The position numbers were made by a program, and so were the translations under genes. From a bacterium (GTDB lineage: Bacteria; Sysuimicrobiota; Sysuimicrobiia; Sysuimicrobiales; Segetimicrobiaceae): a stretch of DNA of 40,554 nucleotides. The number at the start of each line of letters is the position of its first letter. Within the stretch, counting starts at the first letter, position 1. Location: positions 1 to 40,554 of the forward strand of contig DASYZR010000049.1 in the NCBI GenBank assembly GCA_035945995.1, given 5' to 3'. Below, piece after piece: positions 2,535 to 40,554 of this stretch. The notes beneath the pieces are model-generated. The model searched no databases, was not told where the DNA came from, and saw only the letters and a list, made by a program, of their open reading frames with translations.

Positions 2535-3740
2535 TTACGCGGTCTGGACCCGTCTCCCCTCGCCGGCATCCCGCAGCGCGCCGTCGAGCTCGTCCCGCAC
2601 CTCCGGATCGGGCTCATGCAGCAGCCGGTCGCGCAGGTGCCGGCGCGCGGCGTCGCCGCCGATCCGCCCCAGCGCCCACGCGGCGTGCCCACGGATCAAC
2701 GCGTCGGGATCCTGGAGTGCTTCGGCGAGCGCCGGGACCGCGGCGGGGTCCCCCGCGTTGCCGAGCGCCACGGCGACGTTGCGGCGGAACCCCCGCCGCT
2801 TCGCGCGCTTCACGGGCGAGCGGCGAAACCGCCGGCGAAACTCGGCCTCGCCGATGTTGAGCAGCGGGATCAGTTCCGGCCGGGCGCCGGTGTCGGGCCG
2901 CGGCGCCAATTCGGGATGCCGCGCCGCCGCGGTCCGCGCGTTGTGGGGGCACACCGCCTGACAGATGTCGCAGCCGAAGACGTGGCCGCCGATCTGCGGC
3001 CGCAGGTCGCGCGGGATGGATCCGCGGTGTTCGATCGTCAGGTACGAGATGCAGCGCCGCGCGTCCACAGTGTACGGGGCGACGATCGCGCCGGTCGGGC
3101 AGGCGTCGAGGCAGATGCGGCAGCGGCCGCAGTCGCCCTCGGCCGCCTCATCCGGCGGGAGCGCGAGATCGGTGAGAATCTCCCCGAGAAACACCCACGA
3201 GCCGTACGCGCGCTGAGTGATGATCATCGTGTTCTTGCCGAACCAGCCGAGGCCGGCCCGCCGCGCCGCCGCCCGGTCGATGACCGGGCCGGTGTCCACG
3301 TAGTAACGTGCGATCCGCGCGCCGCGGGTGCGAAGGAACTCCGCGAGCCGCCGCAGGCGGGGTTCCATCACGAGATGATAGTCGTCGCCGTGAGCGTAGC
3401 GGCTGATCCGCCCGCGCGGCCCGGCCGCCGGCCAACAGTCGCGGCCGGCCGACAAGGGTGCCCCCGCATCGCCGTCGGTGCCGCCCGGGACGGCGTCCCC
3501 GTAGTAGAGGCCGACGACGACGAGCGATCTGGCGTCGGGGACCACGGCCGCCGGCGCCGGTGAGCGCGGGGCGTTGCGGGCCATGTAGGCCATCTCGCCG
3601 TGGTAGCCCTGCGCCACCCAATCGGTGAGCGCCCGGCCCTCCAAGGCGAACGGCGCGGCCGTTGTGATCCCGCACAGGTCGAATCCGGCGGCGCGCGCTT
3701 CGGCTTTGACGGCGGCGGCGAGCGCCGCGGGAGTGCTCAC
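2535..3740 (-). CDS. queG: Epoxyqueuosine reductase QueG
   Basis: QueG performs the last step of queuosine synthesis, reducing epoxyqueuosine to queuosine in tRNA with cobalamin and two 4Fe-4S clusters. The 401-residue product has the family order: an N-terminal domain, the active-site region YVDTGPVIDRAAARRAG then GWFGKNTM (about residues 134-160), a ferredoxin-like pair CGRCRICLDACP (about 200-212) and GCDICQAVCPHN (about 255-267), and C-terminal HEAT-like repeats from about residue 318. I chose the GTG at 3740 because the family N-terminus begins there and a TATACT box lies six bases upstream, implying a leaderless transcript; no Shine-Dalgarno sequence is visible. It is the first gene of a pair with coaB. 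Confidence 0.93.
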   Translation of the reverse strand: MSTPAALAAAVKAEARAAGFDLCGITTAAPFALEGRALTDWVAQGYHGEMAYMARNAPRSPAPAAVVPDARSLVVVGLYYGDAVPGGTDGDAGAPLSAGRDCWPAAGPRGRISRYAHGDDYHLVMEPRLRRLAEFLRTRGARIARYYVDTGPVIDRAAARRAGLGWFGKNTMIITQRAYGSWVFLGEILTDLALPPDEAAEGDCGRCRICLDACPTGAIVAPYTVDARRCISYLTIEHRGSIPRDLRPQIGGHVFGCDICQAVCPHNARTAAARHPELAPRPDTGARPELIPLLNIGEAEFRRRFRRSPVKRAKRRGFRRNVAVALGNAGDPAAVPALAEALQDPDALIRGHAAWALGRIGGDAARRHLRDRLLHEPDPEVRDELDGALRDAGEGRRVQTA

Positions 3741-3871: not shown

Positions 3872-4207
3872 TTAGCCGGACCCCCAACCGCTCAACGTCA
3901 AGAACATGTCAGCCGCCCGCGGATCGAATTGCCTGCCGGCCTGCTCCCGGATGTACGCTCGAGTCTGCGCCTCCCCCCACGCGGGACGATAGAGACGATC
4001 TGAGCGCTGGGCCTCCTCGCGACGCTGCTCCGCGACCTCGTAGAAACTAAGCCCAGAAGTCAGGAAAATAGCGGTGAGCACAAGGACGATGACACGGGCG
4101 GACAATCCAAACCGCCGCGGCCGCGGATGCGCTACGCCACGGAGTCCATGACCGACGGGACGGTCCGAGCTCAAAGTCAGGGCGGTGTTTCTCGTACGGA
4201 CCTCCAC
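3872..4207 (-). pseudogene. Collapsed membrane HD-GYP domain protein
   Basis: The 111-codon frame joins two pieces that normally lie far apart. Its first half is a sensor-like N-terminus with one membrane helix (SARVIVLVLTAIFLTSGLSF) and a short following helix (YEVAEQRREEAQ). It then continues in frame into SDRLYRPAWGEAQTRAYI and REQAGRQFDP, the extreme C-terminus of the HD-GYP cyclic-di-GMP phosphodiesterase domain. The HD and GYP active-site motifs, and whatever sensor domain preceded them, are gone, so the product cannot be a phosphodiesterase. The GTG at 4207 is a weak start choice, with an AGGAGG 15 bases upstream; the true N-terminus may differ. The reading as an in-frame internal deletion is my inference from the two recognisable ends. 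Confidence 0.55.
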
Positions 4208-5763: not shown

Positions 5764-7704
5764 ATGACCAGGAAGATCCCGCGACGAAAGTTTCTTCAAC
5801 TCTCCGGCGTGGCCGCGGGGGCGCTCTCGGCCGCCTCCGCGTTCCGCGGACTTGCGCCGGGCGCACAGGCGAGTGCCGTGGCGGCGCCCGCAACGAAATT
5901 CCAGGAAGCCCCGATGCTCGCCACGCTGGTCCAGCAGGGCAAGCTGCCGGCGCTTGCCGAGCGCCTCCCGCATGCCGAGGACGTCCTCGTCGTCCGGCCG
6001 GTGAAGACGGCCGGCGAGTACGGCGGCACGTGGCATCGTGTCTGGAAGGGCCCTGCCGATTTTCACGCGTGGCAGCGACTAAACTACGAAGAGGTGCTGC
6101 GCTGGCCCCGGAATCCCAGGGACCCGATCCAGCAGGGGCTGGCCAAGCGCTGGACGTTCACCGACGGCGGAAAGACGCTGACCCTGTACTTCCGGCGAGG
6201 CCTCAAATGGTCCGACGGGCATCCGTGGACTGTTGATGACGTCCTGTTCTGGTGGCACGACATCGAGCTCAACAAGGAGCTGTCGGCGGCGCCGCACGCG
6301 GAGTGGGTGGTGGGCGAGAAGCTGATGGTGCCGGAGAAGGTCGACGATTATACGCTTCGGCTCTCGTTCGCCGCGGCGAACGGGATGGTCTTGCGGATGC
6401 TGGCGTTCCACGGCTGTCAGTGGCCGCTCAGCTTCGAGCGGTTCGGGTTCTACGCGCCCGCCCACTATCTCAAGCAGTTCCACCCCAAGTACAACTCCGC
6501 GGTCACGGACTACAAGCTCTTCAACCAGAAGGCGGACGACCTCAATCCGCAACGTCCGTCCATGACCCCCTGGCCGGTCTCGCAGTATACGCCCGGCAGC
6601 GCCACGCTCATCGCGGACCGCAACCCTTACTACTGGAAGGTGGACCCGGCCGGCCGGCAGCTGCCGTACATCGACCGCGTCGAGCACACCCTCGTCGAGA
6701 GCAACGAGGCCGCCGCGGGCCTCGCCCTCTCCTGCCGGATCGACATGCAGTACCGGAGCATGGACCTCAAGAAGTACCCGTTGTTTGTCGAGAAGTCCGC
6801 CGCGTGCCACTACCACGTCCTGCGGTGGGCGTCGGCGCAGGGCGGCCAGGTTGTGTTCTGGCCGAACCAGACCTATCCGCACGACCCGGTCCTGCGTAAG
6901 ATCTTCCAGGACCGCAACTTCCGCATCGCGCTCTCCTACGCGATCGACCGGCAGAAGATCAACGCCGTCTCGTATCTGAACCAGGGCGTCATCAACGGCC
7001 AGCTCGTTGTGCCCGATTCCCCCTACTTCGTGCCCGACGTGAACACGCTCTACCAGCAGCACGATCCGAAGCGGGCCGGCGAATACCTGGACAAAGCCGG
7101 CCTCAAGCTCGGCCCGGACGGGAAGACCCGCCTGCGCCCGGACGGGCGGCCGCTCGAAATCACGATCGAGACGCAAATGCAGGGCGCCGACCTGGACGCG
7201 GTCCAGCTCACAGCCTCCGACTGGAACGCGGTGGGCGTCAAGGCGGTCGTCAAGACGATGTCGCGCGATCTCTACTGGCCGCGCGCCACCGGCAACGAGG
7301 TGCAGATCGCCACCTGGGGGACCGACCGCGGGATCGAGCCGTTTGTGGACCCGATCTACGTGTTCCCGTTCGATGAGCGGTCGTGGATGGCGCCGGCATT
7401 CGGCGTGTACTACAAGACCGGCGGCGCGCGCGGCGAGCGGCCGACCGGGCCGCTGGCGCGCTCGCAGCAGCTGTACGACCTGTTCAAGGTCACGGTGGAT
7501 CAGGCGAAACAGGTCGACCTCGGCAAGAAACTCATCCGGATGGCCGCCGAAGAGGCGACGACCATCACCACGGTCGGCGTGGTGCCCGTGCCGGTCATCG
7601 TCAAGGACAACATGGAAAACGTCCCGGCGCACTACACGCAGGACTGGGTCATCATGTCGCCGGGGAATCTGGACCCCTGCCAGTTCTTCTTCAAGAAGGC
7701 GTAG
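5764..7704 (+). CDS. Tat-exported ABC solute-binding protein (family 5)
   Basis: This 646-residue extracytoplasmic binding protein of the peptide/nickel/oligosaccharide class (SBP_bac_5) delivers its ligand to the permeases encoded next. A twin-arginine signal, RRKFLQL at residues 7-13 followed by an alanine-rich hydrophobic stretch, means it is exported folded; no lipobox cysteine is seen. The body shows class landmarks such as LKWSDGHPWTVDDVLFWW and FRIALSYAIDRQKIN. The length is on the long side for dipeptide-binding proteins and resembles members that bind oligosaccharides. GGAGGAA precedes the ATG by five bases. Placement between two sugar-acid dehydratase-type genes argues for a sugar-acid or glycoside ligand rather than a peptide; this is inference. 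Confidence 0.88.
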   Translation: MTRKIPRRKFLQLSGVAAGALSAASAFRGLAPGAQASAVAAPATKFQEAPMLATLVQQGKLPALAERLPHAEDVLVVRPVKTAGEYGGTWHRVWKGPADFHAWQRLNYEEVLRWPRNPRDPIQQGLAKRWTFTDGGKTLTLYFRRGLKWSDGHPWTVDDVLFWWHDIELNKELSAAPHAEWVVGEKLMVPEKVDDYTLRLSFAAANGMVLRMLAFHGCQWPLSFERFGFYAPAHYLKQFHPKYNSAVTDYKLFNQKADDLNPQRPSMTPWPVSQYTPGSATLIADRNPYYWKVDPAGRQLPYIDRVEHTLVESNEAAAGLALSCRIDMQYRSMDLKKYPLFVEKSAACHYHVLRWASAQGGQVVFWPNQTYPHDPVLRKIFQDRNFRIALSYAIDRQKINAVSYLNQGVINGQLVVPDSPYFVPDVNTLYQQHDPKRAGEYLDKAGLKLGPDGKTRLRPDGRPLEITIETQMQGADLDAVQLTASDWNAVGVKAVVKTMSRDLYWPRATGNEVQIATWGTDRGIEPFVDPIYVFPFDERSWMAPAFGVYYKTGGARGERPTGPLARSQQLYDLFKVTVDQAKQVDLGKKLIRMAAEEATTITTVGVVPVPVIVKDNMENVPAHYTQDWVIMSPGNLDPCQFFFKKA

Positions 7705-32651: not shown

Positions 32652-32767
32652 ACCGCGACGCCCTCGAATCCGTCCGGCCCCGCCGATGCGGCCGCCCCGC
32701 GATACTTGACTGAGGCAACTATCTTTGTCACGATGGTCGTCACGGGCAATCGAACGGGGGCGCGGCT

Positions 32768-33493
32768 ATGACCGAACTGCTCTATCTCAAGGATAGCTAC
32801 CGGCGCGACGCCGACGCCGTCGTGCGCGCGACCGGCGACGGCGCGGTCGTGCTCGACCGCACGGTGCTCTACCCCGGTGGCGGCGGCCAGCCGGCGGACA
32901 CCGGCACGCTGTGGTGGCCCGGCGGGGAGCGCCGGATCACCGAGATGCGGCGCGACGGCGGGACCGTGTGGCACGTGCTCGACGGCCCCCCGCCGCCGGA
33001 GGGCGCCGCCGTGCGCGCGGCGCTCGACTGGGACCGCCGGTATGCGATCATGCGCCACCACTCCGCGCTGCACGTCCTCGTCGGCGCGGTCTACCGCCTC
33101 TTCAACGCGCGTGTCACCGGCGGGGCGATCTACCCCGACCGCGCCCGGATGGATTTTTCGCTCGAAGACCTCGACAGGAGCCGCGTCGCGGAGATCGAGG
33201 GGGAGACCAACCGGGTCCTCGCGGAGGACCGGCCGATCACCGTGCGGTTCGTGACGCACGAGGAGTTCGCGCGCTCGGATCTCGTGCGGCTGGCCCGGGA
33301 TCTGGTCCCGCGGGACGTCGAGCGCATCCGCGTCGTCGAGATCGACGGGTACGATGCCCAGGCCGACGGCGGCACGCACGTGGCCCGCACGGCCGAGATC
33401 GGCGTCCTCCGGATCGTCAAGACCGAGAACAAAGGCAGGGCCAATCGCCGGCTGGAGATTCAGTTGACGCCCCCGCCGGCCGCAGGCGGGTGA
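32768..33493 (+). CDS. Alanyl-tRNA editing protein AlaX
   Basis: This free-standing editing enzyme hydrolyses serine (or glycine) wrongly attached to tRNA-Ala. The 241-residue sequence has the N-terminal beta-barrel start with YPGGGGQPADTG, the zinc motif RHHSALHVL (HxxxH, about residue 96-101) and the second zinc site in QADGGTHVARTAEIG (about 200). The usual cysteine of CxGTHV is D-G here, as in the middle-length AlaX proteins I know. GGGGGCG lies a few bases before the ATG. TTGACT at 32706 with a weak CACGAT 17 bases on is a possible promoter. It begins a four-gene operon with small-molecule enzymes and a MarR regulator. Confidence 0.88.
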   Translation: MTELLYLKDSYRRDADAVVRATGDGAVVLDRTVLYPGGGGQPADTGTLWWPGGERRITEMRRDGGTVWHVLDGPPPPEGAAVRAALDWDRRYAIMRHHSALHVLVGAVYRLFNARVTGGAIYPDRARMDFSLEDLDRSRVAEIEGETNRVLAEDRPITVRFVTHEEFARSDLVRLARDLVPRDVERIRVVEIDGYDAQADGGTHVARTAEIGVLRIVKTENKGRANRRLEIQLTPPPAAGG

Positions 33494-33498
33494 GCGCG

Positions 33499-33780
33499 AT
33501 GGGATACTACGTGCTGCTCTACTATGTAATCGACAACTTCGTGACGCGCCGGGCTCCATACCGCGAAGAGCACCTCGGCCTCGTCCGCGCGGCGCGCGAG
33601 CGCGGCGAGTTGGTCCTGGCCGGGGCCCTCGGGGATCCGCCCGATCGGGCGCTGCTCGTCTTTCGCGCCTCGGATCCGGCGCCGGTCGAGGCCTTCGCCC
33701 GGAGCGATCCCTACGTCCGGGAGGGGTTGGTGCGGCGGTGGGAAGTCCAACCGTGGGCCGTCGTGGTGGGCGCCCCGTGA
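33499..33780 (+). CDS. YciI-family protein
   Basis: The 93-residue protein has the YciI ferredoxin-like fold pattern: a first strand YYVLLYYVIDN, the conserved histidine in YREEHLGLVRAARERGELVLAGALGD, an LLVFRASDPAPVEAFARSDPYV segment with the conserved acidic D-P, and a final WEVQPWAVVVG strand. Some YciI proteins have hydrolase or dehydrochlorinase-like activity, but the role of most is unknown. The ATG at 33499 is five bases after the AlaX stop; an in-frame GTG at 33490 overlapping that stop is an alternative. The downstream gene overlaps its stop by four bases. Confidence 0.85.
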   Translation: MGYYVLLYYVIDNFVTRRAPYREEHLGLVRAARERGELVLAGALGDPPDRALLVFRASDPAPVEAFARSDPYVREGLVRRWEVQPWAVVVGAP

Positions 33781-34085
33781 TCGCGCGGGTGTGGACGGCG
33801 CGCACCACGCCGGCGCAGGCGCCGGCCTACGCCGATCACCTGCGGGCCCGCGTGCTGCCCCAGCTGCGCGCGCTCGACGGCTACGCCGGCGCGTGGCTGC
33901 TGCGCCGGGATGCCGGCGGCGGGAGCGAGCTCATCGTGGTGACGAGATGGCGGTCGACGCAGGCGGTGCACGCGTTTGCCGGCGCCGACGTCGACGCCGC
34001 GGTCGTCGAGCCCGAGGCCGCGGCGCTCTTGAGCCGGTACGACACCCGCGTCAGACACTACGAGATCGTCGTCGACGATGGGTGA
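33777..34085 (+). CDS. Antibiotic biosynthesis monooxygenase-like (ABM fold) protein
   Basis: A 102-residue protein with the dimeric ferredoxin-like ABM fold: VIARVWTARTTPAQAPAYADHL at the start, then LRALDGYAGAWLLRRD, SELIVVTRWRSTQAVHAFAG, and a final YEIV strand. Family members include cofactor-free oxygenases and haem-degrading proteins; the conserved tryptophan in TRWRS is typical but no catalytic site is certain. The GTG overlaps the YciI stop (GTGA) and the MarR gene overlaps its end by eight bases. It is probably co-regulated with that repressor. Confidence 0.78.
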   Translation: MIARVWTARTTPAQAPAYADHLRARVLPQLRALDGYAGAWLLRRDAGGGSELIVVTRWRSTQAVHAFAGADVDAAVVEPEAAALLSRYDTRVRHYEIVVDDG

Positions 34086-34566
34086 GGGCACCTTGCGGGC
34101 CCGCGTCGCGGCGGTGCGGGCGTTCAACCGATTCTACACCCGCAGAATCGGCGTGCTCCGGCGGCGCTATCTCGGCGGTCCGTTTTCGCTCACGCAGGTA
34201 CGGGTACTGTATGAAATCGCGCACCGGCGCGCGACGGCGGCGGCGCTGGTGCGGGATCTCGATCTCAATCCCGGTTACCTGAGCCGCCTTCTGAGCGGCT
34301 TCGAACGGCGCGGGTTGATCCGCCGTACGCCGTCGCCGGTCGACCGTCGGCAGAGTTTCCTCGCGCTGACGCGACGCGGGTCGGCGGCGTTCGATCCCCT
34401 GGACGCTCGGTCGGAAACCGAGACGGCCGCCATGCTGCGGGCGCTGGCGCCGGCCGGGCAGGTGCGGCTGGTGGCGGCGATGCGGGCGATCGAGGCGCTC
34501 CTGGACCGCGGCGGGCGGATCAGTCGGCCCGCCGCGAGAGCGCCGTCACCGCGCTCTGCGCGCTGA
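34078..34566 (+). CDS. MarR-family transcriptional regulator
   Basis: The 162-residue regulator has the winged helix-turn-helix: FSLTQVRVLYEIAHR (helices 1-2), LVRDLDLNPGYLSRLLSGFERRGLI (recognition helix) and the wing RRTPSPVDRRQSFLALTRRG. MarR proteins are usually ligand-released repressors of nearby enzyme or efflux genes. It ends the AlaX operon and its last 47 bases overlap, tail to tail, the end of the MFS gene on the other strand, which is a plausible target. The C-terminal tail (GRISRPAARAPSPRSAR) is unlike the family and is set by the overlap. Confidence 0.9.
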   Translation: MGEGTLRARVAAVRAFNRFYTRRIGVLRRRYLGGPFSLTQVRVLYEIAHRRATAAALVRDLDLNPGYLSRLLSGFERRGLIRRTPSPVDRRQSFLALTRRGSAAFDPLDARSETETAAMLRALAPAGQVRLVAAMRAIEALLDRGGRISRPAARAPSPRSAR

Positions 34567-35722
34567 ACAGCGCCGCCGCGCCGAGTGGGGCACACAGCAG
34601 AAACGGCGCGGCGATGCCGAGGAGGGCCGCGGCGCCGCCGACGAGCGGTCCGACGAAGAAGCCGAGATCGCCGGAGCTGTTGTACACGCCCATCGCCGTG
34701 GTATACCGGTCGCGCGCGGTGATGCGCGCGATCAGCGTCGTGAAGCTGACCGGCACGATGCCGCCGACGAAGCCGTACACGGCGCCGACGGCGAAGAACG
34801 CGGCCGGCGCGTGCAGCGCCGGTACCAGCAGGGTGCTCGCGGCGCGGCCGACGACCGCGGGCGCGATCAGCCGCTCGGGGCCGATCCGGTCGGCGAGCCG
34901 GCCGGTCGGGATCTGACAGAGCGCGTACGTGAGACCCTGCACGGCGAACACCTCGCCGATCACCAGCACGGACAGGCCCTGTTTCGCGGCGTACAGCGGT
35001 AGAAACGTCAGCCAGATCGCGGTGATCGCATAGTGCAGATGGTTCGCCAGGCACAGGCGAAAGAAGGCCGTATCCCGCAGCACTTCCCAGGCGCGCAGGC
35101 CCGCGGCCGCGGCGGCGGGGCGCCCGCGGTCGGTGATCGAAAACACCACCGGCAGGGCGGCCAGGCTTAGAACCGTTCCCAGGTAGAACGCGGCCCGGCC
35201 GCCGTACCGCGACGCGACAAGGCCCCCGAGCGCCGGTCCGACGAGAAATCCAACGGACGTCACAAGCCAGAACGTGGCGAACGTCCGTCCCCGCGTCTGC
35301 GCCGCGGCGTCTTCCGCAACGCCGGCCATGAGCGGCGTCCACATCGTCGCGCGCGCCGTGCCGATCGCCGCGAGCGCGAGAGCGATCGCCGCGGCCGCGC
35401 GCGCTTCGGCGGCCCACACCAGAGCGGCCGCGTGCAACAGAAGCCCGCCGATCAGCGTCTGCCGCCGTCCCAGGGCGGCGGCGATCCGGCCGACCTCGAG
35501 TTCGACGGCGCCCATCGCGAGGCTGAGCACGCTGACCAGCAGGCCGATCTCCGCCGCGGTGTAGCCGATGCGGGCGAGATGCAGCGGGAGGACCGGAATG
35601 ACCACCTGCCACGAAATCCCGGTGAGAAATCCGGCCGCGCCGAAGAACGCGAGCCGGGTGGGGGCCGGCATGGCGCCGGAGGCGGCCGAAACGGCCGCGT
35701 CGGTATCTGGGGATGATCGCAC
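34520..35722 (-). CDS. MFS multidrug-type exporter
   Basis: A 400-residue (or 383 from the ATG at 35671) transporter with twelve hydrophobic segments, the first after RLAFFGAAGFLTGISWQVV, the loop signature VGRIAAALGRRQTL between helices 2 and 3, and TGRLADRIGPERL at the matching site of the second half. DHA1-type drug exporters look like this. The start is uncertain: GTG at 35722 has no ribosome binding site. It is divergent from the ArsR-type regulator, with about 135 bases between, and overlaps the MarR gene at its end, so either regulator might control it. Confidence 0.85.
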   Translation of the reverse strand: MRSSPDTDAAVSAASGAMPAPTRLAFFGAAGFLTGISWQVVIPVLPLHLARIGYTAAEIGLLVSVLSLAMGAVELEVGRIAAALGRRQTLIGGLLLHAAALVWAAEARAAAAIALALAAIGTARATMWTPLMAGVAEDAAAQTRGRTFATFWLVTSVGFLVGPALGGLVASRYGGRAAFYLGTVLSLAALPVVFSITDRGRPAAAAAGLRAWEVLRDTAFFRLCLANHLHYAITAIWLTFLPLYAAKQGLSVLVIGEVFAVQGLTYALCQIPTGRLADRIGPERLIAPAVVGRAASTLLVPALHAPAAFFAVGAVYGFVGGIVPVSFTTLIARITARDRYTTAMGVYNSSGDLGFFVGPLVGGAAALLGIAAPFLLCAPLGAAALFSAQSAVTALSRRAD

Positions 35723-35795
35723 TTCACACTGGTTGGACGCGGGACGGCCGACTCCTGGACCGGCGGAGGAGCGCCGCGGCGGCCGACCCAGGGCC

Positions 35796-35824
35796 TGGAC
35801 GTTGACATATCAGTTATGTATGAT
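35796..35824 (+). promoter_or_regulatory. ArsR-type promoter with inverted-repeat operator
   Basis: A -10 box TATGAT lies at 35819-35824 with TGGACG as weak -35 17 bases upstream. The perfect inverted repeat ACATA-TCAGT-TATGT (35805-35819) fills the spacer and touches the -10 box, so a bound regulator would block RNA polymerase. AT-rich 5-bp arms of this sort fit ArsR/SmtB operators in general shape. Autoregulation by the adjacent gene is inferred. Confidence 0.5.
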
Positions 35825-35858
35825 GTGTGGGATGACTATTCCCGACGGGAAGGGGCCT

Positions 35859-36611
35859 ATGCGCGGCCAAACGGTAGCGACGATCGCGCGGGCGCTCGCC
35901 GATCCGATCCGGTTCAAGATTCTGGAGCGCCTCTCCGACGGACCGGCGGCCGTCTCCGAGCTCGTGCTTCTGACGGGTGAGTCGCAGTCCAACGTGTCCA
36001 ATCATCTGTCGGTGCTCCGCGCGCGCGGACTCGTCGGCGCGACACGACTGGGGCGCCAGCGCGTTTACGAGGCGTCCGATTCCTCCGTGGGGCAGTTGAT
36101 CGAATCGCTGGTCGTCGTCGCCGGCCGCAGGTCCGCCGGGGTGGAGATCACGCCGTCGCTGGCAAGGGCGCGTACCTGCTACGATCACCTCGCCGGGCGT
36201 CTCGGCGTTGCCATTTTCGACGCCCTCGTCGCGCGCCGCGCGCTCGATCGGCCCGCCGTGCGTTATCGCGGTCCGATCGGACTGGGTCCGGCCGGCCCCG
36301 CGGTGCTCGGACGCCTCGGGATCGACTTGGACGAGGTGCGGCGCGAGCGCCGTCAGTTCGCGACCGCGTGCGGCGACTGGACCGAGCGAAGGCCGCACCT
36401 GGGCGGCGCGCTCGGGGCGGCTCTGTGGGCGAACGCGTTGGAGCGGGGGTGGGTTGTGCGAAGACCCGGCGGCCGGGTCGTCGTACTGACGGAACGTGGC
36501 CGTCGAGGCTTCGGCCGGCACCTCGGTATCCGTCTCGATCGAGACGCCCGGCGCCCAGGGTCCCCGCACACCGCGGATCGCCGCCAGCCACCGGACCGGC
36601 GGCGGTTTTGA
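35859..36611 (+). CDS. ArsR-family regulator with extra C-terminal domain
   Basis: The first 90 residues are an ArsR winged helix: IARALADPIRFKILERLSDGPAAVSELV, then TGESQSNVSNHLSVLRARGLV and the wing TRLGRQRVYEAS. About 150 residues follow, starting with the phrase RARTCYDHLAGRLGVAIFDALV and ending in a helical part with WVVRRPGGRVVVLTERGRRGF. This longer form is a known ArsR subgroup in which the CYDHLAG cysteine and histidine may contact the ligand. The ATG at 35859 has GGAAGGGG just upstream; the ATG at 35832 would be leaderless from the promoter at 35796. It overlaps nothing but is closely followed by an exporter gene. Confidence 0.85.
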   Translation: MRGQTVATIARALADPIRFKILERLSDGPAAVSELVLLTGESQSNVSNHLSVLRARGLVGATRLGRQRVYEASDSSVGQLIESLVVVAGRRSAGVEITPSLARARTCYDHLAGRLGVAIFDALVARRALDRPAVRYRGPIGLGPAGPAVLGRLGIDLDEVRRERRQFATACGDWTERRPHLGGALGAALWANALERGWVVRRPGGRVVVLTERGRRGFGRHLGIRLDRDARRPGSPHTADRRQPPDRRRF

Positions 36612-36619
36612 ACCACACC

Positions 36620-37525
36620 GTGTCCGCCCGGCTGTCCCCTCCGTCGGCGGCCCCCGCGGAGGCGCGACGCCACGGGACGGGGATCGTCCTCGTCACCGCG
36701 TCCGCGGTCGCCTACAGCACCGCCGGGTATTTCACCCGGCTCATTCACCTGGACCCGTGGACCATTCTGTTCTGGCGGGGCGTCTTTGCGGGCGTGTTTA
36801 TCGGGGCCGTGATCGTTGCGCACCACCGCCGCGGTACGCCGGCGGCCGTGCGGGCGATCGGTGTCCCCGGGCTCATCGCCGCGTCGATGTCGACCATCGC
36901 GACGATTATGTTCATCAACGCCTTTCGCCGGACATCGGTCGCGGACGTGACGATCATCTTCGCGACGGCGCCGTTCATGACCGCGGCGCTCGGATGGTGC
37001 TGGATCCGGGAACGGGAATCGTGGCCCACGCTGCTGGCCAGCGCCGTCGCGTTTGCCGGCGCCGTGGTCATGGTGGGCGGGGCGGCCACCGCGGGCCGCC
37101 TGGCCGGGGATGTGCTTGCCATCGGGATGACATTCTGCATGTCAATCATGATGCTGATCATCCGGCGGTACCGGAAGACGCCGATGCTGCCCGCCGCGTG
37201 CCTCTCGGCGTTCTTGTGCTCGCTCGCGGTGCTGCCTTTCGCCCGGCCGGCAAGCCCCGGGGTCGTGGACATGGTGTTTCTCGTGCTGTTCGGGACCACG
37301 CAGTTTGGGCTCGGTCTGTTGCTCCTCACGCTCGGGGCGCGCCTGGTGTCGGCGACCGAGTCGGCGCTGATGAACGCCCTTGAAGGGCCGCTGGCGCCGT
37401 TGTGGGTGTGGCTCGCGTTCGCGGAAGTGCCTCCGCGGACGACCCTGATCGGCGGGTCGATCGTTCTGGCCGCGGTCTTCGGCCACATCGCCGCGAGTGC
37501 GCGATCCCGGCGCGTGCTAGAATAG
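36620..37525 (+). CDS. EamA/DMT-family exporter
   Basis: The 301-residue membrane protein has ten helices in two EamA repeats, the first beginning GIVLVTASAVAYSTAGYFTRL and with FWRGVFAG, and the second beginning LAGDVLAIGMTFCMSIMMLIIRRYR with SALMNALEGPLAPLWVWLAF near its end. EamA proteins export metabolites such as amino acids or their analogues. The GTG at 36620 is eight bases after the regulator stop; a TTG at 36608 overlapping it is possible. It is presumably regulated with the ArsR-type gene. Its last codons (R-V-L-E-stop) contain the -10 box of the following tRNA-Ala. Confidence 0.85.
   Translation: MSARLSPPSAAPAEARRHGTGIVLVTASAVAYSTAGYFTRLIHLDPWTILFWRGVFAGVFIGAVIVAHHRRGTPAAVRAIGVPGLIAASMSTIATIMFINAFRRTSVADVTIIFATAPFMTAALGWCWIRERESWPTLLASAVAFAGAVVMVGGAATAGRLAGDVLAIGMTFCMSIMMLIIRRYRKTPMLPAACLSAFLCSLAVLPFARPASPGVVDMVFLVLFGTTQFGLGLLLLTLGARLVSATESALMNALEGPLAPLWVWLAFAEVPPRTTLIGGSIVLAAVFGHIAASARSRRVLE
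37518..37523 (+). promoter_or_regulatory. Extended -10 box of tRNA-Ala copy 1, inside the exporter stop
   Basis: TGC followed by TAGAAT precedes the tRNA by 11 bases. The box spans the last Leu and Glu codons and enters the TAG stop of the EamA gene, so coding end and promoter share bases. No -35 box of note is seen. Confidence 0.55.
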
Positions 37526-37534
37526 AGGACGCGT

Positions 37535-37609
37535 GGGGACGTAGCTCAGTGGGAGAGCACCTGCTTTGCAAGCAGGGGGTCGCCGGTTCGAATCCGGTCG
37601 TCTCCACCA
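37535..37609 (+). tRNA. tRNA-Ala (anticodon TGC), copy 1
   Basis: A 75-base cloverleaf with encoded CCA. The acceptor GGGGACG/CGTCTCC contains the G3:U70 pair that defines alanine identity. The anticodon stem CCTGC/GCAGG closes the loop TTTGCAA, anticodon TGC. It is identical, base for base, to the copy at 40358-40432. Confidence 0.98.
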
Positions 37610-37743
37610 GCTGACGCGCGAAAATCGCTAGAACCCTTGCTATTTAAGGAGGAAGGACTCGAGAAAGCAGAGGGTTACCCCGCTAACGGCTTCGAAACCG
37701 CGTGTTGTTCGTTGATCGCACTGGGGCGGGGCCGCGCAGGTCG
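37610..37743. other. Junction region after tRNA-Ala copy 1
   Basis: No gene is convincing here. Present are an interrupted CCTT-AAGG repeat starting about 25 bases after the tRNA, a strong Shine-Dalgarno-like AAGGAGGAAGGA at 37647-37658 with no coding start at the right distance, and a GGGTTACCC palindrome. Composition shifts here from the high-GC chromosome to the lower-GC block that follows. Confidence 0.35.
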
Positions 37744-38697
37744 TCAATCCGTCACTTCGACTTCGACCGCCTGCAGCGTAAGGGGCTGCACTCTCACGAT
37801 GACCGATTTCTCCACGAGGTCCGGCGGCCGAGCGACGATGCTCCCGCCGACAATGAATCGTGGGTTCTCGGATAAGGTGAACGACCGGCCGTCGCCGAGC
37901 ATCAAAGTTCGGTCGGTCGCCGACTCGACGCGTCCCCTCTCTTCGCGTACCAACACCTCTCCTTGCCGGATCGTCCCCCGAGGGCGCGGTCCCCCGCCAA
38001 TTTCGACAACGAGTCTCACCGCGTCGCCGGAGAAGATCTGCCGGAGCTGGATCGGCTCGACGCGACTTGTGTTGAGATCGCGACGAAAGAACGCGGTGTC
38101 GGGAGCGACGGTGAACGTGCGGGTTTGGTTCCCATACCATGTGATGACGATGTCCGGCAAGCGGGCGGCGAGGTCCACGCGCAGTACGGTTCCCTCCGCG
38201 GGCCCTTGCTTGGGCGGCACCGGCTCCGCGGCCGGCGGCGAGGACGGCGGGGCCGGTCCGGGCGTGATCGACACGATGTGGAGCCCGGGATCCCACGTGA
38301 CCGCCGCCCCTAACGCCTCGCCGACGAACCGCAAAGGCACGTATACCCGCCCTGCGACGATGATTGGTGCCGCGTCCAAGGTGACGGGCGAATCATTGAT
38401 GAACGCCTGGCGGCTGCCGGCCATGAGCCTGACCTGCGTGCTCCGGCCTGCCGCTACATTGCGAGAGACGATGACGGCATGTGTCGCCGGGTTTTCCCAA
38501 GCAAGCGTAGCGCCCAGTTGTTCAAATAGTCCTCGCACGGGCACAAACACGCGGCCGTCAATGATCAGAGGGGGACGCTCGAGTGTTATCTCGTGTCCGG
38601 TAATCACCACACGAAGCGCCGAATCCGCCGGAGCCGGGAGCGCCGCGCTCAAGACAATCGCAAGCGCGGGGAGCGAAGCCAAAAGGCTTCCTCTCAC
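37744..38697 (-). CDS. Exported protein with copper amine oxidase N-terminal-like repeats
   Basis: The 317-residue product starts with a signal peptide (GSLLASLPALAIVLSAALPAPADSA) followed by two stalk-type repeats: PPLIIDGRVFVPVRGLFEQLGATLAW and APIIVAGRVYVPLRFVGEALGAAVTW. These are the hallmark of the Cu_amine_oxidN1 domain, a common cell-surface module that needs no copper. A proline-rich linker (PAPPSSPPAAEPVPPK) leads to an unrecognised beta-rich domain of about 150 residues. The GTG at 38697 has AGGTG eight bases upstream. It follows the gene at 39693 on the same strand with a gap of 51 bases, probably one operon. GC content is lower than in the rest of the window. Confidence 0.8.
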   Translation of the reverse strand: MRGSLLASLPALAIVLSAALPAPADSALRVVITGHEITLERPPLIIDGRVFVPVRGLFEQLGATLAWENPATHAVIVSRNVAAGRSTQVRLMAGSRQAFINDSPVTLDAAPIIVAGRVYVPLRFVGEALGAAVTWDPGLHIVSITPGPAPPSSPPAAEPVPPKQGPAEGTVLRVDLAARLPDIVITWYGNQTRTFTVAPDTAFFRRDLNTSRVEPIQLRQIFSGDAVRLVVEIGGGPRPRGTIRQGEVLVREERGRVESATDRTLMLGDGRSFTLSENPRFIVGGSIVARPPDLVEKSVIVRVQPLTLQAVEVEVTD

Positions 38698-38748
38698 GTG
38701 TTTCGCACCTACGCCTCCCGGCCCCACACGTTTGCCCAAGCCGTCAGC

Positions 38749-39693
38749 CTATGGCGACGTCACCTGCCATTTATAGTTCGGCGCCAGCACCTGAAGGCTG
38801 TACTTGGGGGCGTTCGTAAAGCACCACCCGATCGCCCACGCATACGAGTTCGACGAGTTCGCGTACGTCCAGGCTCCTCCCATAAGTACCTGAATTTGAT
38901 CCGCGGTTATCGGTGGGAGGGACGGACAAACATTCGCCTGCTGCATATCGTTTTCGTGGACCGACCAGCCGCCGGAGGTGTCCGGCAGTTGAGGTGTGCT
39001 GACCTCATACGCGAGATCCCACGCGTTGGTGTTGAAATTGTAGATCATCGCATCGTATGTGACGGACGTCGAGCCGTCTGGGATGGCGCTCTGGACGAGC
39101 TCCACCCAAAAGACATTGGCGCCGTTATAGTACGTCAGATAATTGCTGATGAATGTCGAATCCATCGGAATAGAAGTGCCTATACCCTGGGCGACGCAAT
39201 GGTCCCATACCCAGACCGCCCGCAAGGTTTGGGTGTCGCCGGGATACCGTGTGTACGCCGTCGTCCATTCCAGGCACGAGTTGGCGTTCATGCCTGTCGG
39301 CGCGTAAAGAAAGGCCGGCGCTTGCACCGGACCGAGTTCAAGGTCCGGAGAGGCAGCGTGCGCCGCGTAATATCCTAGTGCTGTGCCCACCGTCGTATCG
39401 ATACCGATATCGGTGCCCGCATTGCCGTCCCCCAGCGCCGGCCTAGGTGGTGTGCCGCGCTTGGGAAACCGGCGTTTCGGTCGACTTGCAAAATGCGGCC
39501 GCTTCACCGTCAGCCGGTGCGCGGTCTTTCGATATTGTGCCTGGTTCGTGACCGGCCGGGGTGGACTGGTAATGGCTCGCGCCGCGCGAGGCGCCCCCGC
39601 CACTTCGGAAACCGGGCTTACCGCTCCAAGCATTGTCAGACTCAGGGTGAGACTCAGGAGAGCCCTAATCGGCCATCTCGTCAACGCAATCAC
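38749..39693 (-). CDS. Exported protein of unknown family with four cysteines
   Basis: The 314-residue product has a signal peptide (WPIRALLSLTLSLTMLGAVS, then SEVAGAPRAARA), a basic proline-rich linker to about residue 80, and a compact domain rich in Asn, Tyr, Trp and Ser. Four cysteines (in NSCLEW, DHCVAQG, NVCPSLP, GWCFTN) could form two disulphides. The domain has the look of a beta-sandwich surface or carbohydrate-binding protein, but I recognise no family. The GTG at 39693 is preceded by AAAGGGG, and a TACAAT -10 box lies at 39719 to 39714. Codon use is less GC-rich than chromosomal neighbours, and it sits between the two tRNA-Ala copies. Confidence 0.7.
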   Translation of the reverse strand: MIALTRWPIRALLSLTLSLTMLGAVSPVSEVAGAPRAARAITSPPRPVTNQAQYRKTAHRLTVKRPHFASRPKRRFPKRGTPPRPALGDGNAGTDIGIDTTVGTALGYYAAHAASPDLELGPVQAPAFLYAPTGMNANSCLEWTTAYTRYPGDTQTLRAVWVWDHCVAQGIGTSIPMDSTFISNYLTYYNGANVFWVELVQSAIPDGSTSVTYDAMIYNFNTNAWDLAYEVSTPQLPDTSGGWSVHENDMQQANVCPSLPPITADQIQVLMGGAWTYANSSNSYAWAIGWCFTNAPKYSLQVLAPNYKWQVTSP

Positions 39694-39965
39694 CGTCCCC
39701 TTTTGCCCCCTAAATTGTATTTTGCCCAGCGTGCACGGGCCGGCAAAACTCAACGGGGGTAGTGACCCGGCGCGGGGCCCACAAGTCTTCGTCCAGGGGG
39801 CAAGCCCACACGCCTTTGAGCACCACTGGTAACTTGGGTACGCAGCTCATGATAAGCTGGTTGGACGCCGGGCTGTTGACTCCTCGATGGTACGGGGGAG
39901 CGGACATCCACAACGCGAAGATCGGCAGACGTTAGCGAGCGGTCTGTTGCGGCGGAGGGCGACAC

Positions 39966-40345
39966 ATGCGGTTTGCGATCTCGATTTCCCAGCACGCTGC
40001 CGACGGCACGTTTCACCCAGCCGCTTTCCGCGCCTACCTGGCCGTGCCGAGGCGCTCGGGTTCGAGAGCATCTGGACGCTGGAGCAGGTGTTGGGCTCGG
40101 TACCCCACATGGGACCGATCGAGACGATGACCTACGCGGCGGCGTGCAACGAACGTCTGCGCCTGGGCTGCGCCGTGCGGGATCTCGAGTCCGTTCCCGT
40201 CTTCGGCCCGCCGCGGGCGTGCGTGGACGGGCTCCACGAGATGATCGAGGCGGGCGCGGAGATGATTCTGCTCAATCCGCTCTTCGACGAGGCGGAGCAG
40301 ATGGAGCGCCTCGCCGCCGACGTGATGCCGCGCATGCTAGAATAA
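39966..40345 (+). pseudogene. Collapsed luciferase-like (F420-type) monooxygenase gene
   Basis: A good ribosome binding site GGAGGG lies seven bases before the ATG at 39966. The frame opens MRFAISISQHAADGTFHPAAFRAYL, as in LLM-class oxidoreductases. Near 40042 one base is missing; restoring it continues RAEALGFESIWTLEQ and TMTYAAACNERLRLGCAV, the normal first 60-70 residues. Directly after this the sequence jumps to the family C-terminus (VFGPPRACVDGLHEM, LLNPLFDEAEQMERLAADVMPRMLE, stop 40345). About 200 residues of the barrel, including most cofactor contacts, are absent. So the gene carries both a frameshift and a large internal deletion and cannot be active. Its last codons carry the -10 box of tRNA-Ala copy 2. 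Confidence 0.75.
40338..40343 (+). promoter_or_regulatory. Extended -10 box of tRNA-Ala copy 2, inside the relic's end
   Basis: TGC-TAGAAT, the same element as before copy 1, lies 14 bases before the tRNA and overlaps the last Leu-Glu codons and the TAA stop of the luciferase-like relic. Confidence 0.55.
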
Positions 40346-40357
40346 ATTGCCAGGCGT

Positions 40358-40432
40358 GGGGACGTAGCTCAGTGGGAGAGCACCTGCTTTGCAAGCAGGG
40401 GGTCGCCGGTTCGAATCCGGTCGTCTCCACCA
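40358..40432 (+). tRNA. tRNA-Ala (anticodon TGC), copy 2
   Basis: Identical over all 75 bases, CCA included, to the gene at 37535-37609, in the same orientation. Acceptor with G3:U70, anticodon loop TTTGCAA. The two copies are 2,823 bases apart, start to start. Confidence 0.98.
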
Positions 40433-40554
40433 GCCCTTGAATGCCAAGGCTTTGCGGGCTCTAAGGCCCCCGGGAAACGGCCTGGAAAAGCAGGGGCCCA
40501 TCCCGGGTCACAACCGAGACCGTTGCGAGGCGCGCACAAGTCCCTCATCCTCGC
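40433..40554. other. Region after tRNA-Ala copy 2 to the window end
   Basis: No gene is visible. Ten bases or fewer after the tRNA is a hairpin CCTTG-AATGC-CAAGG, resembling in position the weaker CCTT/AAGG repeat after copy 1. It may process or end the tRNA transcript, or belong to an attachment site; the sequence stops too early to tell. Confidence 0.35.

Follow-up and report, generated by a model that had tools for sequence, protein, structure and literature searches.

What became of the luciferase-like monooxygenase (LLM) gene at positions 39966-40345, and why should its two ends have outlasted its middle? The window, meaning the whole 40,554-nucleotide stretch analysed here, corresponds to contig C49 in G000, a 4.15-Mb draft genome in 181 contigs with a completeness of 98.8%. 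The original prediction, made from the sequence alone, held that the gene had collapsed to its two ends and that the tail could have survived because it contains the -10 box of a tRNA-Ala gene. The collapse is borne out by comparison with relatives: the gene is intact at the same place in one congener (G001), more collapsed in another (G002), and carries its middle in all 12 full-length homologs aligned. The interval very probably holds a TIGR03619-like LLM oxidoreductase gene that was inactivated recently and is now a pseudogene. As for the tail, the sequence taken to be the -10 box, TGCTAGAAT, is conserved down to third codon positions, and its part in the survival of the tail is plausible only.

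Anatomy of the gene remnant

The remnant begins as predicted, with a good ribosome binding site, CGGAGGG (39953-39959, plus strand, read in the sequence), followed by an ATG start codon (39966-39968) and a canonical N-terminus. GGAGG also lies upstream of the start in G001 and G002. The N-terminal part extends for 26 codons (39966-40043, plus strand; translation and homolog alignment), its first frame reading MRFAISISQHAADGTFHPAAFRAYLA, after which family resemblance is lost. Alignment to the positional ortholog in G001 places a one-base frameshift near 40042, as had been claimed, and from 40046 the family match picks up in another frame as AEALGFESIWTLEQVLG...LRLGCAV. This second stretch of 43 codons (40046-40174, plus strand; codons 28-70 in G001 numbering) corresponds to positions 32-73 of the Pfam PF00296 profile, has 33 of its 43 residues in common with G001, and runs to the deletion joint (40174-40178, plus strand). 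No stop codon interrupts the joint, where GCAV passes into RDLESVPVFGPPRACVDGL...PRMLE with a stop at 40345. The C-terminal part (40178-40345, plus strand; 55 codons and the stop, from translation, BLAST and homolog alignment) can also be read from RDLESVPVFGPP...PRMLE. Compared with G001, the joint lacks about 537 bases, a size taken from BLAST pieces that end at 3379 and resume at 3917 on the reverse complement of the G001 locus (L022). The loss is large and internal, as proposed, and in frame; it amounts to 179 of 306 codons (58%), a little under the two thirds first estimated.

The nearest NCBIfam model is TIGR03619 (F420-dependent LLM class oxidoreductase), and the corresponding Pfam family is PF00296 (Bac_luciferase). 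The intact G001 ortholog (175.1 bits) and an intact paralog on contig C110 of the same genome as the window (179.6 bits) both exceed the curated TIGR03619 cut-off of 166.9 bits, in contrast to the frameshifted window copy without 58% of the gene, which scores 16.1 bits. The whole fragment matches PF00296 only at profile positions 23-76, compared with 1-247 for an intact gene. When the fragment is aligned to intact relatives, as suggested with the original prediction, 92 of 123 retained residues are identical to G001. Descent from a TIGR03619-type gene is indicated by sequence likeness, the same neighbours and the same tRNA, and the one-base frameshift and the deletion relative to the intact G001 ortholog are lesions of the kind expected of a pseudogene. 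Loss of most of the PF00296 profile suggests that no functional product is made.

The locus in congeners and the timing of loss

The 99 retained residues were searched in 61 genomes, of which 11 gave a match at E ≤ 0.001. In G001, a member of the same genus, an intact 306-aa LLM positional ortholog lies directly upstream of the same tRNA-Ala(TGC), its 3' end overlapping TGCTAGAAT ahead of the tRNA. In G002, also of the same genus, all that is left of the LLM gene is the start and a final 63 bases ahead of tRNA-Ala; the order there is a conserved leader, a 450-aa gene, and GGAGGACAGGC ATGCGCTTTG joined to the last 63 LLM bases and followed by tRNA-Ala, ATGCGCTTTG being the retained LLM start. 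The 450-aa gene appears S41-peptidase-like by reading of its sequence and has a close match only in G002, others being at most 47% identical. The three congeners thus present three stages: intact, partly collapsed and nearly gone.

Flanks are collinear in the window, G001 and G002. By BLAST the flank at 32765-35679 is 76% identical to G001 and that at 32765-35653 is 78% identical to G002; flank identities are 80.2% for G001-G002, 78.4% for window-G002 and 76.3% for window-G001. By this measure G001 (intact) and G002 (collapsed) look like the closest pair of the three, which makes two separate collapses the simpler history. Separate collapses in the window and G002 are likely on this comparison of three taxa without an outgroup. 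Alternatively, the window and G002 may have shared a first deletion, the G002 deletion enclosing that of the window.

A normal short family member in which the two LLM parts are contiguous was looked for as a reading contrary to collapse and is rejected, since the missing middle is present in all 12 full-length homologs aligned and none is short. These 12 comprise four family proteins and eight loci out of the 12 that the genome scan returned, each with an open frame that passed a filter of at least 200 aa, a G-[CS]-A motif and a BLAST match to the G001 protein. The four loci left out of the alignment (L098, L100, L106 and L107) were each looked at separately. L100 is truncated by its own contig start, and L107 is a distant match confined to residues 1-213. 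L106 (Gandjariella thermophila) carries LLM residues 258-304 alone, as a 63-aa frame at 5953-6144 following a gene that resembles a methyltransferase by reading of the sequence. L098 (a Rokuibacteriota MAG) has both LLM ends at 1558-2293 with about 300 unrelated bases between them, the gene being broken at about residue 68, nearly as in the window copy (70); its repeats gave no clear mobile-element ends. Because the scan query consisted of the two retained ends, two-ended and tail remnants were favoured.

A 166-residue query from the middle of the G001 protein finds the missing middle elsewhere in G000 only in paralogs. The C110 paralog, which is intact, matches best at 80% identity; the other matches, all distant LLM proteins, do not exceed 37%. 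In the protein tree the window fragment groups with G001 (support 0.763), whereas its DNA is more similar to C110 and G003 than to G001, with 111 of 129 positions of the pre-joint part matching C110 and 96 of 129 matching G001. This mismatch may reflect fast change of the G001 gene or conversion with the paralog. Values of dN and dS for the retained parts are 0.177 and 1.05 for window-G001, 0.126 and 0.55 for window-C110, and 0.142 and 0.486 for window-G003, compared with 0.068 and 0.328 for C110-G003. The corresponding dN/dS ratios of the retained parts are about 0.17 (G001), 0.23 (C110) and 0.29 (G003), still purifying-like and near the 0.21 of C110-G003, indicating that the loss is recent.

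Two features of the DNA upstream of the remnant were also compared. A leader (39859-39931, plus strand; BLAST to G001 and G002) precedes the LLM gene and is kept in all three congeners though the next gene differs, being in G002 the S41-peptidase-like one. The leader was considered as a structured RNA and rejected: Rfam gives nothing up to E = 1, and the folding z-scores (0.23, 1.68 and -2.52) disagree, with similar hairpin folds in two of the three. Immediately before it lies a segment of about 4.2 kb (35680-39858) that G001 and G002 lack at this position. Among its genes are one for an ArsR-like regulator and one for an EamA transporter, a pair with a similar counterpart elsewhere in G001 (C10); it also carries a second tRNA-Ala(TGC) and the promoter element of that tRNA, a gene with a copper amine oxidase N-terminal domain, and a neighbour of no Pfam family. 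The latter two genes are 90% identical to contig C4 of G002, as against 78% for the flanks.

The tRNA-Ala gene and the retained tail

Directly beyond the remnant lies tRNA-Ala(TGC) (40358-40432, plus strand; ARAGORN, with Rfam RF00005 at 40358-40429). The last LLM codons overlap TGCTAGAAT (40335-40343, plus strand), a probable extended -10 element of this tRNA gene that includes TAGAAT at 40338-40343. The window contains two copies of TGCTAGAAT, where 0.06 would be expected, and each stands directly before a tRNA-Ala gene; none of 100 shuffles had two copies. The second copy belongs to the tRNA-Ala(TGC) of the 4.2-kb segment (37500-37609, plus strand; tRNA at 37535-37609), where it overlaps the stop codon of the upstream EamA gene; the EamA genes read in G001 and G002 have different ends and no adjoining tRNA. 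A partial duplication that made the LLM fragment together with this second tRNA-Ala was considered and rejected, since homology between the two places is confined to the tRNA and about 35 bases before it.

In all three genus members examined TGCTAGAAT closes the LLM gene just ahead of tRNA-Ala, at the same distance from the tRNA, and the second window copy likewise precedes its own tRNA. Third codon positions are invariant across the three congeners in seven of the last eight codons versus four of the 12 preceding ones (one-sided Fisher p = 0.025, a small test in which each set includes one ATG codon without possible silent change). A sigma-70 consensus scan of 40100-40554 returned no complete promoter and no -35 element was recognised, which leaves the -10-like element and its conservation as the basis for the candidate promoter. 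An extended -10 element is able to act with a weak -35. Taken together, these results make it very probable that the tRNA-Ala gene has its -10 element in the tail. The arrangement was seen in the genus: 12 family genomes were searched for tRNA-Ala(TGC) and the upstream DNA was read in 10 (only a CGC tRNA was read in G004, and G010 was left out), and in the seven outside the genus other sequences, with no LLM tail, stand upstream of tRNA-Ala(TGC).

These observations allow a proposal for the survival of the tail. Short illegitimate deletions would have removed a dispensable LLM gene, of which a close intact paralog remains on C110, and those reaching into the last ~25 bases would also have removed the adjacent tRNA-Ala promoter, would have been selected against, and would so have left the tail in place. 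In G002 one tRNA-Ala(TGC) was seen among the matches (40 of 98 candidates scored), and loss of its promoter should therefore be harmful there. As an explanation of why the tail survives, shelter by the promoter is plausible and has moderate support, and we would place it at slightly less than an even chance. More tentative is its extension to the genus, by which the LLM 3' end would have become the tRNA-Ala(TGC) promoter and sheltered the tail, so that two species with separate deletions both kept it.

About equally credible, and likewise just short of even, is that the gene is a pseudogene whose tail persists by chance and youth, the tRNA promoter being irrelevant; this reading competes only with the shelter step. 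The 55 retained codons, far more than the length of a promoter, speak for it and against shelter, as does the tail-only remnant in L106. ARAGORN finds no tRNA in that 12-kb locus or in the L098 locus, so LLM ends can persist without an adjoining tRNA. The shelter argument is also weakened by the second, identical tRNA-Ala in the window (at 37535). Chance and youth account less well for the leftovers in G002, which are the start and the tRNA-proximal 63 bases, and for the conserved silent positions of the last eight codons in three congeners.

The downstream side of the tRNA gene has features of its own. In G001 (L022 3-470, minus strand) a tyrosine recombinase (Phage_int_SAM) frame follows tRNA-Ala(TGC), reading back into the 3' half of the tRNA; a similar frame is found in L061 (G006) and interrupted ones in L059 and L062. 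In the window an open frame past tRNA-Ala (40400-40554) runs to the contig end. The tRNA is probably an integration site.

Standing of the pseudogene reading

That the true gene is intact, and the contig misjoined or its bases dropped by assembly or base-calling error, is improbable. The draft state of the genome and the closeness of the remnant to the contig end at 40554, 122 bases beyond tRNA-Ala, would permit such an error; it would have to produce two separate defects within a gene this short, a different genome (G002) also has the gene in collapsed form, and the missing middle turns up on other contigs of G000 only as paralogs. A functional short LLM-derived protein, such as the product of the 152-aa open frame at 39887-40345 or of an internal start, is hardly credible even with the deletion in frame, because the 152-aa product would have the N-terminal part translated in the wrong frame, the fragment lacks most of the PF00296 profile, none of the aligned homologs is short, and almost nothing of the gene is left in G002.

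The recently inactivated pseudogene thus favoured resembles the bacterial pseudogenes that decay by deletion under deletional bias, for example those of The Extinction Dynamics of Bacterial Pseudogenes (PMC2916853), in its frameshift and internal deletion, its recent loss and its intact paralog elsewhere. Unlike them, it retains both its start and its end, the latter overlapping a probable tRNA promoter, and two congeners show the collapse of this one gene. Searches on pseudogenes keeping a neighbour's promoter, on LLM pseudogenes and on integrase-tRNA overlap gave nothing relevant among the titles listed. Taken alone, the locus is one more ordinary bacterial pseudogene with a modest twist. 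It has a little value nevertheless, showing clearly how the two ends of a gene can outlast the middle, and the promoter of the neighbouring tRNA offers an explanation that can be tested for why its tail survived.
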